64,000 bases of DNA from Rhodanobacter fulvus Jip2 (GTDB lineage Bacteria; Pseudomonadota; Gammaproteobacteria; Xanthomonadales; Rhodanobacteraceae). The notes under the pieces were generated by a model, which was given only the letters and a program-made list of their open reading frames with translations, searched no databases and was not told where the DNA came from. The position numbers and the translations under genes were made by a program. Below are positions 2,715 to 63,731 of the stretch, one piece after another (position 1 is the first letter of the stretch; each line of letters begins with the position of its first letter). Location: positions 1-64,000 of the forward strand of contig NZ_AJXU01000029.1 in the NCBI RefSeq assembly GCF_000264315.1, in the 5' to 3' direction.

Positions 2715-3185
2715 TCACCAGACGCCCGTGTTCGGCATGGATGCCCACGGTTCGCGCGGTTCCAGGTGTCCGTCCTGCAGCAACTCGATCGAGATGAGGT
2801 CGGGCGAGCGCACGAAGGCCATGTGGCCGTCGCGGGGCGGGCGATTGATGGTGTAACCCATTGACTGCAGGCGTTCGCAGGTGGCGTAGATGTCGTCCAC
2901 GCGAAACGCCAGGTGGCCAAAATTGCGCGCGGAACCGTAGTCGTCGTCCACGCGAAACGCCAGGTGGCCAAAATTGCGCGCGGAACCGTAGTCCTCGTCG
3001 GCATCCCAGTTGTAGGTCAGCTCCACTTCCGCGTCCGGGCTTTCGGCCGCCGACAGGAACACCAGCGTGTAGCGCCCGGTGGGCACTTCCATGCGGCGCA
3101 CTTCGCGCAGGCCCAGCCCTTCGCAATAGAAACGCAGGGAGGCGTCGAGGTCGCGTACGCGAACCATGCTGTGCAGATATTTCAT
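2715..3185 (-). CDS. gloA: Glyoxalase I family protein with internal tandem duplication
   Basis: This is a VOC-family protein closest to bacterial glyoxalase I (lactoylglutathione lyase), which isomerises the hemithioacetal of methylglyoxal and glutathione. Expected metal ligands are visible: His5 (KYLHSMVRV), Glu55 (EVELTYNW), His74 (FGHLAFRV) and Glu134 (ISIEL). GGAG lies seven bases before the ATG. The oddity is that residues 65-81 are repeated exactly as residues 82-98, so the strand carrying the His74 ligand occurs twice (His74 and His91). Without the extra 17 residues the protein would be 139 residues, close to the usual size. Whether the product still folds and binds metal as a dimer is unknown, so it may be altered or inactive. 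The gene symbol is given by family resemblance. Confidence 0.85.
2892..2993. repeat. Exact 51-bp in-frame tandem duplication
   Basis: Bases 2892-2942 and 2943-2993 are identical over 51 bp; the flanking bases at both ends differ. The unit is 17 codons and lies inside the glyoxalase gene, so the frame is kept. The lack of any substitution between copies suggests a recent event, or an assembly artefact. Confidence 0.97.
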
Positions 3186-26929: not shown

Positions 26930-28195
26930 TCACTCCTGCAGCAAGGCGTCCACCATCTGCGTGACGCGCCGCACGGCGCCACGCTCGCGATCGAATACCT
27001 GGTGCGCGACGCGCCCCATCTGGGCGCGCTTCTCGTCATCGAGCAACAGCCGCAGCACATCGGCGCCAAGCTGGTCGCTGCTGTCCACGCATTCGGCGCC
27101 GCCCTCGCGAATCAGGGTGAGCGTGATCTCGGCGAAATTGAACGTGTGCGGCCCGACCAGGACCGGCCGGGCCAGCGCGGCCGGCTCCAGCACATTGTGG
27201 CCGCCGATGGGTACCAGGCTGCCACCCACGAAAGCCAGGTCGGCCGCCGCGTAGAACGGCATCAGCAAGCCCATGGCGTCGATCAGGAACACCTGGTGCG
27301 ACGCCGCCGGCAGCCCGTCGGCACTGTGCGTGGCCATCGAAAAACCCAGCGTGTGCACGGCATGCTCCACCAGCTTGAACCGTTCCGGATGGCGCGGTGC
27401 GATCAGCAGCAGCGCGTCGGGAAACTGCTTGAGCACCTGCAGATGCGCATCCAGTACCGCCAGCTCCTCGCCCTCGTGCGTGCTCGCGGCCATCCACACC
27501 GGTCGTTCGCAGCCCCATTGCCGGCGCATGCTGGCGCCTGCAGCGGCGGCATCGGGTGGTATGCGCATGTCGAACTTCATGTTGCCGCTGACCACGATCT
27601 GCTGCGGCTCGGCACCCAGCAGGCGATAACGCGCTGCATCGGCCACCGACTGCGCCGCGATCACCTGCACGCAGCGCAACGCCGAGCGCACGGTGCCGCG
27701 CAGGAACCGGTACCCCCGCAGCGAGCGATCGGACAGGCGCGCGTTGACGATCATCATCGGCACCCCGCGCTTGTGGCAGGCGTGATACAGGTTCGGCCAG
27801 ATCTCGGTTTCCACGATCAATGCCAGCTGCGGCCGGATCCTCTGCAGGAACCGGTTCACCGCGAACGGCAGGTCGTAGGGCAGATAGACGTGAAACACCG
27901 CGTCGCCAAACAGCTGGTGCACGCGCGCCATGCCCGTCGGGGTGACGGTGCTGATGACGAGGGGCGCGTTGGGGTAATCCTTGCGCAGCGCCTTGATCAG
28001 GGGCTCGGCCGCATTGACCTCGCCCACCGACACGGCGTGCACCCACAGGCTGCCGTTGAAACCCGGCGCATCGAAAAAGCCGAACCGCTCCGACCAGCGT
28101 CGATGGTAGGGCGGCGAGCGCACCCCGCGCAGCAACAGGCGCAGCACGATCAACGGCATCGCCAGGTACATCGCGAAGGTGTAGAGATAACGCAC
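26930..28195 (-). CDS. waaA: 3-deoxy-D-manno-octulosonic acid (Kdo) transferase
   Basis: This 421-residue membrane-anchored GT30 glycosyltransferase adds Kdo to the lipid A precursor. After an N-terminal anchor helix (about 5-22) come 'WVHAVSVGEVNAAEPLI' (with the catalytic Glu), 'STVTPTGMARV', 'YLPYDLPF' and 'VETEIWPNL'. The C-terminal half shows 'AASTHEGEE' and 'GGSLVPIGGHNVLEPA'. The GTG at 28195 was chosen since GGAG lies six bases upstream and homologues begin close to the membrane anchor; longer frames run into the divergent intergenic region. It faces the acyltransferase gene divergently, joining two lipid A-related genes. Confidence 0.93.
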   Translation of the reverse strand: MRYLYTFAMYLAMPLIVLRLLLRGVRSPPYHRRWSERFGFFDAPGFNGSLWVHAVSVGEVNAAEPLIKALRKDYPNAPLVISTVTPTGMARVHQLFGDAVFHVYLPYDLPFAVNRFLQRIRPQLALIVETEIWPNLYHACHKRGVPMMIVNARLSDRSLRGYRFLRGTVRSALRCVQVIAAQSVADAARYRLLGAEPQQIVVSGNMKFDMRIPPDAAAAGASMRRQWGCERPVWMAASTHEGEELAVLDAHLQVLKQFPDALLLIAPRHPERFKLVEHAVHTLGFSMATHSADGLPAASHQVFLIDAMGLLMPFYAAADLAFVGGSLVPIGGHNVLEPAALARPVLVGPHTFNFAEITLTLIREGGAECVDSSDQLGADVLRLLLDDEKRAQMGRVAHQVFDRERGAVRRVTQMVDALLQE

Positions 28196-28384
28196 GCGCA
28201 ACTCCGTGGTAGCGCCGCAGTATACGAGAGCGCGGAAGGGCGCGAAGGCGAAAGCGACCATCAGCCGTTCGGGCTGGGCGTGGCCGGCCAGCGGCGAAGT
28301 CGAAGCCGCGCCGTGTACACCCTTCGACTCCGCCGCTGCGCGGCTACGCTCAGGGCGATCGGTGGAAGTGCGCGATGCCTTCCC

Positions 28385-28419
28385 GATTCCCGATTCCCGA
28401 TTCCCGATTCCCGATTCCC
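28385..28419. repeat. (GATTCCC)5 tandem heptamer array
   Basis: Five perfect tandem copies of GATTCCC are followed by a degenerate GCTTCCC. The array sits in the waaA/acyltransferase divergent region, about 35 bp upstream of the acyltransferase ATG. The reverse-complement heptamer occurs in four copies after ahcY. Confidence 0.95.
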
Positions 28420-28453
28420 GCTTCCCCTTTCCCGGCCAATTACACTAGCGCCA

Positions 28454-31478: not shown

Positions 31479-31558
31479 GTGGGAGCGGCTTCAGCCGCGA
31501 TGCTCCTGGCTTTGAGGTGATTCGGGGGGAAAAGCATCGCGGCTGAAGCCGCCCCCAC
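31479..31558. repeat. REP-type inverted pair (GTGGGAGCGGCTTCAGCC)
   Basis: The outward half GTGGGAGCGGCTTCAGCCGC begins at 31479 and is mirrored by a near-perfect inverted copy ending at 31558, about 30 bp apart. This is a bacterial interspersed mosaic-like REP doublet of the type known in pseudomonads and xanthomonads. A second pair lies at 56340-56408. Confidence 0.95.
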
Positions 31559-31573
31559 AAGAACACAGGCCGC

Positions 31574-42626: not shown

Positions 42627-45533
42627 TCAGGGCGTGAGCATGCGGATGGCCTCGTCGCGCACGCTGCGCATGCTGGCGTTGAGGTTGGCCGGGTTCATGG
42701 CGATGACGGGATCCAGATACTCCTGGCGGACATTTTCGGCGGCATGTTGTGCGCCCAGTTCGGCAAGCGCGTAATGCAGGCGCGACGCACTCTCGATCGT
42801 ATGCGCATCGCGCGGCCCAAGCAGCTTCTCGCGCCCGGTCAACGCCTGCCGGTAGGCCACGCGCGCCGCCTTCCAGTCGCCCGCATCGCTGTTGATATCG
42901 CCGATCAGTGTCAGCGTGCCGAAGATGATCGGATGATCGTCACCCAGCGCACGGCGCTGCCCCGCCAGCGTGAGCTCGGCCTCGGCCAGCGCCTTCCGGT
43001 GCTGACCGGCGGCGTTCAGCAGGCTGGCCAGGCTGCCGTGGGCCATCAGCGTGTGAGGGTGGTTCGGCCCCAGCATGCGTTCATGCGACGCCAGAATCCT
43101 GCGCTCCAGCGCAATGGCTTTCGCGTAATACCCCTGCGCGATCGCCGGGTCATCGGCAAAATGCCCCTGTTTGGCCACCAGCCGCACCATCACCGTGAGT
43201 GACGCCATCGTGTCCGGATGATCCGGGCCGAGCAGTCGCTCGCGCGTGGCCACCACCCGATCCAGCAGCGCATGCGCCTGCTTGAACGCGGCCGGATCCT
43301 GCGCCAGGTAGACCTCGTCGGTGGCGACCATGTTCTGCGCGCGCAGCGTCTCGGGGTGATCCGCGCCCAGCTTGCGCTCGCGGATGGTCGCCACTTCGCG
43401 CGCCAGCTCCAGTGATTTCTCGTACTCGTGGCGGTAGTGCAGCAATTTGGCCAGCACCACCATGGCCTTGAGTGTTTCGGGGTGCTCCGCGCCCAGCTTG
43501 CCGCGGTCCAGCGCCACCAGCGCCTCGGCCTGCTTGCGCGCTTCGTCACGCATGCCCAGGCCGATGAGGGTGGTCACCAAGTCCTGCCGCAGTTCCATCA
43601 CACCGCTGTCGGTGGCCGGCAACGGCAGCTGCAGTTGCGCATACAGCTTCTGCTGCAGCGCCAACGCCTGCTGCAGATGGCCTTGCGCCGCCAGCACCCG
43701 ACCGCGCCCGGCTTCCGCCGCAACGCGCAACGGCGCGGTCACCGGCAGCGAGGACGATTCCCTGCCCGATTGCTTGAACAGTTGCGCCGCGGCATCCAGG
43801 TCGCCCTTGCGATACAGGGCCTGCGCCAGGTCGATCTGCGTCGAAAGCCGCGCCTGGTCATCGGCGGGCGCGTCGTGGTCGCGGGTCGCCAGCACCTTGC
43901 GCAATTCGGTGACGGCGTGCGGGTAACTGCCGATGTTCACCAGCACGCGGGCCAGGGACTGGCGCATGTCGGCGGCGAGTGTCGGTGCATCGGCAAACGC
44001 CGCGTCCAGGCTGTCCAGCGCGTGCGTCACCACGTAGGTATCCAGCACGTTGCGGGCGGTGTCGGTCGCCGAGATGCCGGCGAAGGCGCGCTGCAATTCC
44101 TCGACCGCGCCCTTGTCCGGCGCGGGCCCGTCCTTGCCGCTCGAGAGCATGGCGGTCAGTTGCCGCTCCTGATCGCGCTTGATCGCATGACCCATCGCGT
44201 CGATGTCCACGCTGTCGAACATCGACTGCTGGAAGTGCACGATGCGCTCCAGTTGCTGTTGCCGATGTTCGGCCAGCTGCTGCTGGGTGCGCGCCTGGCC
44301 AAGCGCATACAGCGATGAGCCCAGGCCGGACAGCACCGCGATCAGCAGCACCGACGCGGCCGCCAGCGGCCAGCGGTTGCGCTGCACGAAGCGGCGTACG
44401 CGATACAGCCGCACGCCGCGCCGCGCGTGCACCGGGTGGCGCGCCAGAAAACGCCGCAGGTCCGCCACCATTTCGCCCACGGTGGCGTAGCGTTCAGCCG
44501 CATGCCGACGCAGTGCTTTCAGCACGATCGCATCGATATCGGCCGGCACCGAGAACCCGGGCGTCTTCTCGCCGTTGAACTCTCTTGCCGCCGCCTTCGC
44601 GACACGGCTTGGCGCCACCACGGCGCCGCTGATGATGGCGTTGGTCAACAGGTGCGGCGTCACCAGATGCTGGAACGGCCGCCGCCCGGACACCAGCTGG
44701 TAAAGCACCACGCCCAGCGAATAGACGTCCGCGGCGGTGGTCAGCGGCTGGCGTTCGATCTGTTCCGGGCTGGCGTAGGCCAGGGTCAGCGCGTGGGCGC
44801 CGGTGGCGGTGTCGGCGACCTCAACGTGCTCGTCGATGATCCGCGCGATGCCGAAATCCAGCAGTTTCGGCTCGCCATATTCCGTTACCAGGATATTCGC
44901 CGGCTTGATGTCGCGATGGATGATGAGGTTGCGATGGGCGTATTCCACCGCCGCGCATACCTTCAGGAACAGCAACACGCGCTCGCGCAGGTCGGCCCCA
45001 TGGTGTTCGCACCAGGCATCGATGCGCTCGCCCTCGACGTACTCCATCGCCAGGAACTGCTTGCCATCTGTCAGCACGCCGCCATCGAGCAGATGCGCAA
45101 TGCCCGGATGCTCCAGCCGCGCCAGCACCTGCCGCTCGCGGGTGAAGCGCTCCAGCAGCACCGGCGAGCCTTCCGCCGACGCCTGCAGGAATTTCAGCGC
45201 CACCTGCTGCACGAAATCACCGTCGGTGCGCTCGGCCAGGTAGACCGTACCCATGCCGCCTTCACCCAGGCGGCGCAGCAAGCGGTATTGCCGCGGCGCC
45301 GAGGCCTGCGCGTCGTGGCCGCTGAGGTCGGCCGTCTGCATCTGGTCGCCCGGCATCGGCGCGGTGTGGCTGCTTTCGATGGCGCTGATCATCCAGCGCA
45401 CTTCGCGGCCGAGCTCCTCGTCGCCGGCCACCGCCGACGCGATCATTTCCTCGCGCGCATCCATGCCAAGCTCGATCGCCGCCATGGCGATAAGCTTCGC
45501 CTCGCGATAGCGATCCGTCAGTTGCCTGGTCAT
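42627..45533 (-). CDS. Membrane-anchored Ser/Thr protein kinase with TPR-type C-terminal region
   Basis: This 968-residue Hanks-type kinase has three parts. The cytoplasmic kinase domain (about 83-365) has G-loop GEGGMGTVYLAE (90-101), Lys114, catalytic HRD (206-208, HRDIKPANIL) and DFG (226-228), all intact. One transmembrane helix (about 388-411) follows. The periplasmic C-terminal half is made of TPR-like repeats, several with the pattern 'LGxDHPxT' typical of tetratricopeptide/NB-ARC-linked repeats. Such kinases in xanthomonads often pair with an ECF sigma factor, but none is adjacent here. The protein-binding periplasmic part suggests sensing; partner and target are unknown. Confidence 0.93.
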   Translation of the reverse strand: MTRQLTDRYREAKLIAMAAIELGMDAREEMIASAVAGDEELGREVRWMISAIESSHTAPMPGDQMQTADLSGHDAQASAPRQYRLLRRLGEGGMGTVYLAERTDGDFVQQVALKFLQASAEGSPVLLERFTRERQVLARLEHPGIAHLLDGGVLTDGKQFLAMEYVEGERIDAWCEHHGADLRERVLLFLKVCAAVEYAHRNLIIHRDIKPANILVTEYGEPKLLDFGIARIIDEHVEVADTATGAHALTLAYASPEQIERQPLTTAADVYSLGVVLYQLVSGRRPFQHLVTPHLLTNAIISGAVVAPSRVAKAAAREFNGEKTPGFSVPADIDAIVLKALRRHAAERYATVGEMVADLRRFLARHPVHARRGVRLYRVRRFVQRNRWPLAAASVLLIAVLSGLGSSLYALGQARTQQQLAEHRQQQLERIVHFQQSMFDSVDIDAMGHAIKRDQERQLTAMLSSGKDGPAPDKGAVEELQRAFAGISATDTARNVLDTYVVTHALDSLDAAFADAPTLAADMRQSLARVLVNIGSYPHAVTELRKVLATRDHDAPADDQARLSTQIDLAQALYRKGDLDAAAQLFKQSGRESSSLPVTAPLRVAAEAGRGRVLAAQGHLQQALALQQKLYAQLQLPLPATDSGVMELRQDLVTTLIGLGMRDEARKQAEALVALDRGKLGAEHPETLKAMVVLAKLLHYRHEYEKSLELAREVATIRERKLGADHPETLRAQNMVATDEVYLAQDPAAFKQAHALLDRVVATRERLLGPDHPDTMASLTVMVRLVAKQGHFADDPAIAQGYYAKAIALERRILASHERMLGPNHPHTLMAHGSLASLLNAAGQHRKALAEAELTLAGQRRALGDDHPIIFGTLTLIGDINSDAGDWKAARVAYRQALTGREKLLGPRDAHTIESASRLHYALAELGAQHAAENVRQEYLDPVIAMNPANLNASMRSVRDEAIRMLTP

Positions 45534-56259: not shown

Positions 56260-56266
56260 TGTAGCC

Positions 56267-56294
56267 GGGATTCGGGATTCGGGATTCGGGATTC
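56267..56294. repeat. (GGGATTC)4 tandem heptamer array
   Basis: Four perfect tandem copies of GGGATTC lie eight bases after the ahcY stop. It is the reverse complement of the heptamer array at 28385-28419. Confidence 0.95.
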
Positions 56295-56307
56295 GGAAGA
56301 TTACAGA

Positions 56308-56339: not shown

Positions 56340-56408
56340 GTGGGAGCGACTTCAGTCGCGATGCTCTTGCTCCAGCTCCAAAGCCATCGCGGCTGAAGCC
56401 GCTCCCAC
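56340..56408. repeat. REP-type inverted pair (second copy)
   Basis: GTGGGAGCGACTTCAGTCGCGAT (56340-56362) is mirrored by ATCGCGGCTGAAGCCGCTCCCAC (56386-56408). It belongs to the same family as the pair at 31479-31558 and directly abuts the ahcY terminator. Confidence 0.95.
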
Positions 56409-56431
56409 AAGCGACGGACCCTGCCGCTCTG

Positions 56432-56470
56432 CTCCCTCCCCTGCTCGCAGGGGAGGGCTGGGGAGGGGTT
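56432..56470. repeat. C-run/G-run palindromic repeat before metF
   Basis: CTCCCTCCCCTGC-TC-GCAGGGGAGGG followed by CTGGGGAGGGG belongs to the same family as the elements near 13.7, 49.25, 59.0 and 63.65 kb. It lies about 70 bp before the metF start. Confidence 0.85.
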
Positions 56471-58995: not shown

Positions 58996-59003
58996 TCGCC
59001 ATG

Positions 59004-59031
59004 CTCCCTCCCCTGCTCGCAGGGGGAGGAG
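59004..59031. repeat. C-run/G-run palindromic repeat between ilvE and sensor kinase
   Basis: CTCCCTCCCCTGC-TC-GCAGGGGGAGGAG is a perfect-stem member of the repeat family. It lies in the 45-bp gap between two convergent stops, where it may double as a terminator. Confidence 0.85.
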
Positions 59032-63640: not shown

Positions 63641-63731
63641 TACCCCTCCCCAACCCTCCCCTGCAAGCAGGGGAGCGAGAACCGCCGGCTTTGCTCCTCC
63701 CCCTGCTGGCAGGGGGAGGTTGGGAGGGGGT
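63641..63731. repeat. Double C-run/G-run palindromic repeat after trmB
   Basis: Two family members lie back to back: CCCTCCCCTGC-AA-GCAGGGGAG and CTCCTCCCCCTGC-TG-GCAGGGGGAGG, with outer copies of CCCCTCCC/GGGAGGGG. The element fills the gap between the convergent trmB and DUF559 genes. Confidence 0.85.

Follow-up and report, generated by a model that had tools for sequence, protein, structure and literature searches.

The glyoxalase I-like gene of Rhodanobacter fulvus Jip2 (gloA by homology) carries an exact, in-frame 51-bp tandem duplication of the segment encoding its putative metal-ligand strand, and this two-copy form is a lineage-specific allele, present here and absent from all relatives examined. 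The gene lies near the start of the 64,000-nucleotide stretch of contig NZ_AJXU01000029.1 that was analysed (positions 1 to 64,000, here called the window). On balance, we favor an account in which short seed repeats drove a duplication private to this lineage, copy 2 in reading order is the working copy, copy 1 is looped out, and the enzyme is probably active, with no special function for the extra unit. The gene and the two copies are placed as follows:

2715..3185, minus strand: glyoxalase I-like gene, termed gloA by homology (156 sense codons and a stop codon, including the 17-codon duplication; identified from its translation, PF00903, and its PDB relatives)
2943..2993, minus strand: copy 1 in reading order (amino acids 65 to 81, with His74), an exact copy and the putative looped-out extra in the inter-module linker
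2892..2942, minus strand: copy 2 in reading order (amino acids 82 to 98, with His91), an exact copy and the putative working metal-ligand strand

The two copies adjoin and are identical at 51 of 51 nucleotides, and the run of period-51 matches is exactly 51 nt long. Tandem Repeats Finder scored this repeat highest in the window (209 versus 89 for the runner-up). Because the repeat is in frame, the protein contains a 17-amino-acid unit twice, and with it the metal-ligand histidine, as His74 and His91. The first-pass annotation had described two perfect adjacent 17-codon copies inside gloA and two candidate ligand histidines; the copies were borne out and the residue numbers agree with the translation. 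Across 390,304 scanned bases (including 2,576 N) of the 3,879,600-base (3.88-Mb) genome, three short all-N contigs aside, near-perfect tandem copies with periods of 20 to 400 were detected only at gloA and at one site within a heptamer array at 28380. Given the exact adjacent copy, the top score in the window, and the genome scan, a chance repeat is not a plausible explanation. At E ≤ 0.01 the genome has one match to the protein; no second enzyme close to the gloA product was found at this threshold, and a second gene copy was rejected as the source of the unit.

The name gloA rests on homology only. The protein scored 74.7 bits against Pfam PF00903 (Glyoxalase / VOC superfamily; gathering cutoff, 20.6) and 112.1 bits against the lactoylglutathione lyase equivalog model TIGR00068, under its curated cutoff of 120. 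Three single-copy relatives (L002, L033, and L034) likewise fell short of the latter, at 105, 110, and 101.4 bits; the shortfall is therefore not caused by the duplication, and we rejected it as a sign of damage. A phylum-wide search with TIGR00068 returned no match from this genome at 1e-25. Since they score under the NCBIfam cutoff, this gene and the three tested relatives may be annotated automatically as just VOC family proteins. The best PDB relatives of the protein are nonetheless glyoxalase I enzymes. The solved fold closest to its AlphaFold model is Pseudomonas aeruginosa GloA2 (4mtq; Z = 15.9, rmsd = 2.0, 119 residues aligned), and Escherichia coli glyoxalase I (1f9z) aligns with Z = 15.4 and rmsd = 1.9 over 116 residues; these scores and the elements of the model correspond to the paired beta-alpha-beta-beta-beta fold. 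The columns of H5, E55, H91, and E134 are invariant in 73 aligned sequences and give the His, Glu, His, Glu pattern (with H91 or H74); these four we take, by analogy with the E. coli enzyme, to be the metal ligands. The earlier proposal of a glyoxalase I homolog with its metal-ligand strand inside the in-frame repeated unit, and with two candidate ligand histidines, is supported. The genome also encodes gloB (314 bits). Of its 10 other PF00903 matches, 8 were scanned, in their matched parts only, and gave no match to lactoylglutathione lyase models at 1e-5.

Across 100 genomes, 87 (this one included) contain a match to the gene. The 65 full-length matches comprise the present gene, at 468 nt, and 64 others of 417 to 438 nt; 12 more genomes match in two overlapping or adjoining pieces that jointly span 417 to 438 nt (worked out by hand), and the matches in 10 of the 87 are distant or partial. 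The whole gene was therefore measurable in 76 relatives of other species (64 plus 12), all with the single-copy size. Within the genus, full-length matches of 417 or 420 nt occur in 43 of 44 other genomes; the remaining genome, 89% complete, lacks one. A family-wide search matched 191 of 233 genomes at 1e-20, and among the matches listed the lengths, judged by eye, were 417 to 435 nt except for the present gene. Match lengths at 80 loci taken from titled records were 411 to 450 nt. Among the genomes examined, the duplication is thus confined to this one, and we rejected the idea that it is an ordinary family feature.

The sister genome, G001, has a single copy and encodes 139 amino acids, compared with 156 here. 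Within the 60 kb of G001 that was compared, segments at 92 to 96% identity cover the first 59 kb of the window, with some gaps. The sister species is about 94% identical in DNA sequence, and its gene differs at 25 of 417 positions, 6 of them within the unit. Outside the extra copy the proteins differ at two amino acids, a comparison that is hardly informative on activity since the duplication. As in this genome, the gene sits roughly 3 kb from the end of a contig in many relatives (e.g., L006, L015, and L029), which suggests that a repeated element near the gene, such as an rRNA operon, breaks the assemblies.

The likely seeds of the mutation are legible in the sequence, as two imperfect 13-nt repeats at the outer ends of the duplication and a hybrid between the copies:

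2987..2999, minus strand: left seed repeat, coding sequence GACGAGGACTACG, which straddles the start of copy 1 and matches the other seed at 10 of 13 positions
2885..2897, minus strand: right seed repeat, coding sequence GACGACATCTACG, which straddles the end of copy 2
2936..2948, minus strand: hybrid junction between the copies, coding sequence GACGACGACTACG, whose first 6 nt equal the right seed and last 7 nt the left seed

In a would-be single-copy gene the two seeds would be spaced 51 nt apart. At the same position in 30 relatives, 5 to 9 of 13 nucleotides match, and in the genes of those relatives none of 3,570 in-frame pairs 51 nt apart reaches 10 matches (mean, 3.58). The seeds and the hybrid junction point to replication slippage or short-homology recombination between the 13-nt repeats as the most likely origin; either route would account for both the length and the ends of the unit. 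We propose that the 17-codon tandem duplication arose, in frame, on the branch leading to this Rhodanobacter genome, from a single-copy gene whose unit was flanked by the two repeats.

The age of the event is bounded loosely. A duplication dating back to the divergence from G001 would be expected to show 3.1 to 6.0 differences between its copies, the figure varying with the rate assumed; the observed zero places the 95% age bound at 0.50 to 0.98 of the branch that began at this divergence, again by the rate used. The first-pass annotation had called the event very recent. The absence of any difference between copies, on which it relied, holds, and a very recent origin is possible, but the bound makes the claim weaker than stated. 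Correction between the copies could also mask a greater age.

Which copy serves as the metal-ligand strand was judged from the pattern of insertions and deletions in relatives, because every alignment tried for modeling either favored one copy or failed. The survey began with 141 loci, from which one without the search motif and the present gene were left out, giving 139 rows (132 distinct), and indels were tabulated over residues 45 to 99. The linker between the strand with the Glu ligand and the strand with the His ligand varies from 11 to 21 amino acids in the 132 distinct relatives, being 12 amino acids in single-copy relatives and 11 in short-type loci, and further indels occur ahead of it, after residues 46, 49, and 51. 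Long linkers of 19 to 21 amino acids, with a conserved sequence of the YHNGN..P.G type, occur at 21 loci, which resemble the Zn-type enzymes. From residue 70 to residue 99, a stretch that takes in the strand, the turn, the helix, and the residues after it, the 139 aligned rows are free of insertions and deletions. If copy 2 is the strand, the surplus falls in the length-tolerant linker, which then reaches 29 amino acids; if copy 1 is the strand, the surplus falls in a turn that is invariant in length across the sample. This pattern suggests that the working strand is formed by copy 2 (His91) and that copy 1 makes a flexible loop, with the tolerance of a 29-amino-acid linker extrapolated beyond the longest linker seen (21).

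Structure prediction agrees with this register but cannot choose it. An AlphaFold model built with 73 sequences has a mean pLDDT of 85.8, with 109 of 156 residues at 90 or more; it places a strand at residues 92 to 96, in copy 2, and leaves copy 1 without a strand and with pLDDT below 50 at residues 67 to 80, from an input alignment that was already gapped at copy 1. The one extra beta strand suggested earlier was thus not seen, with the same alignment bias applying. Prediction from the single sequence gave a pLDDT of 36.7 and says nothing on register. Alignments of small sets and of full homologs (72 of 80 loci) placed the gap at or within copy 1. Terminal pieces were also aligned, with 8 of the 72 homologs dropped for motif mismatch; of 60 listed, 44 were used with the unit and 43 without it. 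Both the N- and the C-terminal pieces that bear the unit aligned to copy 2, and the pieces without the unit were mis-stacked, the N module onto the C module. AlphaFold is, moreover, a poor judge of destabilization.

The reading frame is intact, the ligands are kept, and one reading of the insertion places it on the strand's tolerant side. The most likely outcome, judged from sequence, is that the protein still folds. Copy 2 would replace the normal metal-ligand strand beside the following helix, and copy 1 would be pushed out, lengthening the linker that joins the two beta-alpha-beta-beta-beta modules by a flexible segment. The enzyme is probably active, perhaps with lowered stability or activity, and the duplication probably has no special function.

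The main alternative is a loss-of-function allele, in which the 17-amino-acid insertion misplaces the metal strand or blocks the dimer, leaving the enzyme dead or nearly so, and the gene otherwise looks intact owing to the youth of the event. A ligand strand is affected by the insertion, in an enzyme with active sites at the dimer interface (PMC5412262), and the linker would be 29 amino acids long against a maximum of 21 seen. We nevertheless consider loss of function unlikely: the indel pattern places the linker on the tolerant side of the strand, H5, E55, H91, E134, and the frame are intact, and no obvious backup glyoxalase I was found in the genome, so that loss may cost methylglyoxal tolerance.

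An assembly or sequencing artifact, with one copy in the cell, is highly unlikely. In its favor, the draft assembly is in 130 contigs, and the 76 measurable relatives all have the single-copy size. Short-read assemblers, however, are more prone to collapsing short tandem copies than to inventing them; the hybrid junction sequence is not given by any single-copy path, and no other such coding duplication occurs among the scanned bases of the genome.

A still slighter chance attaches to a functional shift. According to a review (PMC5412262), the Zn-dependent forms of glyoxalase I have extra loops, and deletions in GloA3 indicated that metal choice is governed by an alpha-helix part and the activity level by two small loops. 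A lengthening of the inter-module linker, in which short Ni-type and long Zn-type enzymes differ, together with a second histidine might provide two exchangeable ligand strands and shift activity or metal preference. By analogy with the GloA3 deletions (PMC5412262), an effect on activity would be more likely than a change of metal. A reversible switch, in which slippage between the perfect 51-bp copies restores the single-copy form in some cells so that the locus varies between two forms, is the least probable reading: slippage can delete one of two perfect tandem copies, but this holds for any exact tandem copy and so is no sign of a selected switch, and two copies occur in one genome only, the single representative of its species, with one copy in the 76 measurable relatives, all of other species.

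The protein shares its fold and ligand pattern with the short (Ni/Co-type) glyoxalase I enzymes GloA2 (4mtq) and E. coli glyoxalase I (1f9z), and the linkers of its single-copy relatives are likewise short, but here the linker and ligand strand are present twice. The long (Zn-type) enzymes also have extra linker residues before the ligand strand (19 to 21 amino acids at the 21 loci). Theirs form a distinct conserved sequence, whereas the surplus here is a copied strand: the linker lacks the YHNGN..P.G-type sequence of 19 to 21 amino acids and consists of the protein's own strand copy, at 29 amino acids if copy 2 is used. In T4 lysozyme with an engineered tandem duplication of a helix, one copy of the exactly repeated element can reportedly fold while the other loops out; both cases are exact repeats of a secondary-structure element, but the present one is a strand, natural, and known from sequence and a model. 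In yeast and Plasmodium, a single glyoxalase I polypeptide contains two glyoxalase I domains (PMC5412262), a doubling of the whole domain rather than of one strand and linker. Bacterial genes are known to carry small internal tandem duplications: rcsB of one E. coli O157:H7 isolate has a 5-bp tandem duplication (PMC5343319) that, like ours, is a small within-gene event private to one isolate; that one truncates the protein, whereas the 51-bp duplication is in frame and the protein runs on. No equivalent natural glyoxalase case was found in the literature searched, which is not proof of absence in print.

The gene thus appears to be a known enzyme in a lineage-specific allele with a readable mutational origin and not a new system. 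If the protein is stable, it provides a natural test of what a new, exact repeat of an active-site strand does to an enzyme and bears on whether the inter-module linker of glyoxalase I can grow without loss of function. If the two strands were exchangeable, it could be a natural snapshot of a loop gain starting to change metal class.

The window contains several other repeats. About eight heptamers (TTCCCGA) at 28380-28434 lie between two divergent genes, one waaA/kdtA-like (26930-28261, minus strand) and the other lipid A acyltransferase-like (plus strand), both named from reading the open reading frames; this array may be variable in length, with possible effects on either promoter. At 56266-56296 a related array of heptamers (CGGGATT, 4.4 copies) lies past an apparent stop codon and ahead of an apparent terminator hairpin. 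Two families of short dispersed repeats, one at 31530-31561 and 56380-56411 and the other at 56425-56453, 58997-59025, and 63687-63715, resemble REP elements. Finally, four diverged 31-nt repeats spaced 126 to 159 nt apart at 43048-43501 are perhaps part of a repeat protein.
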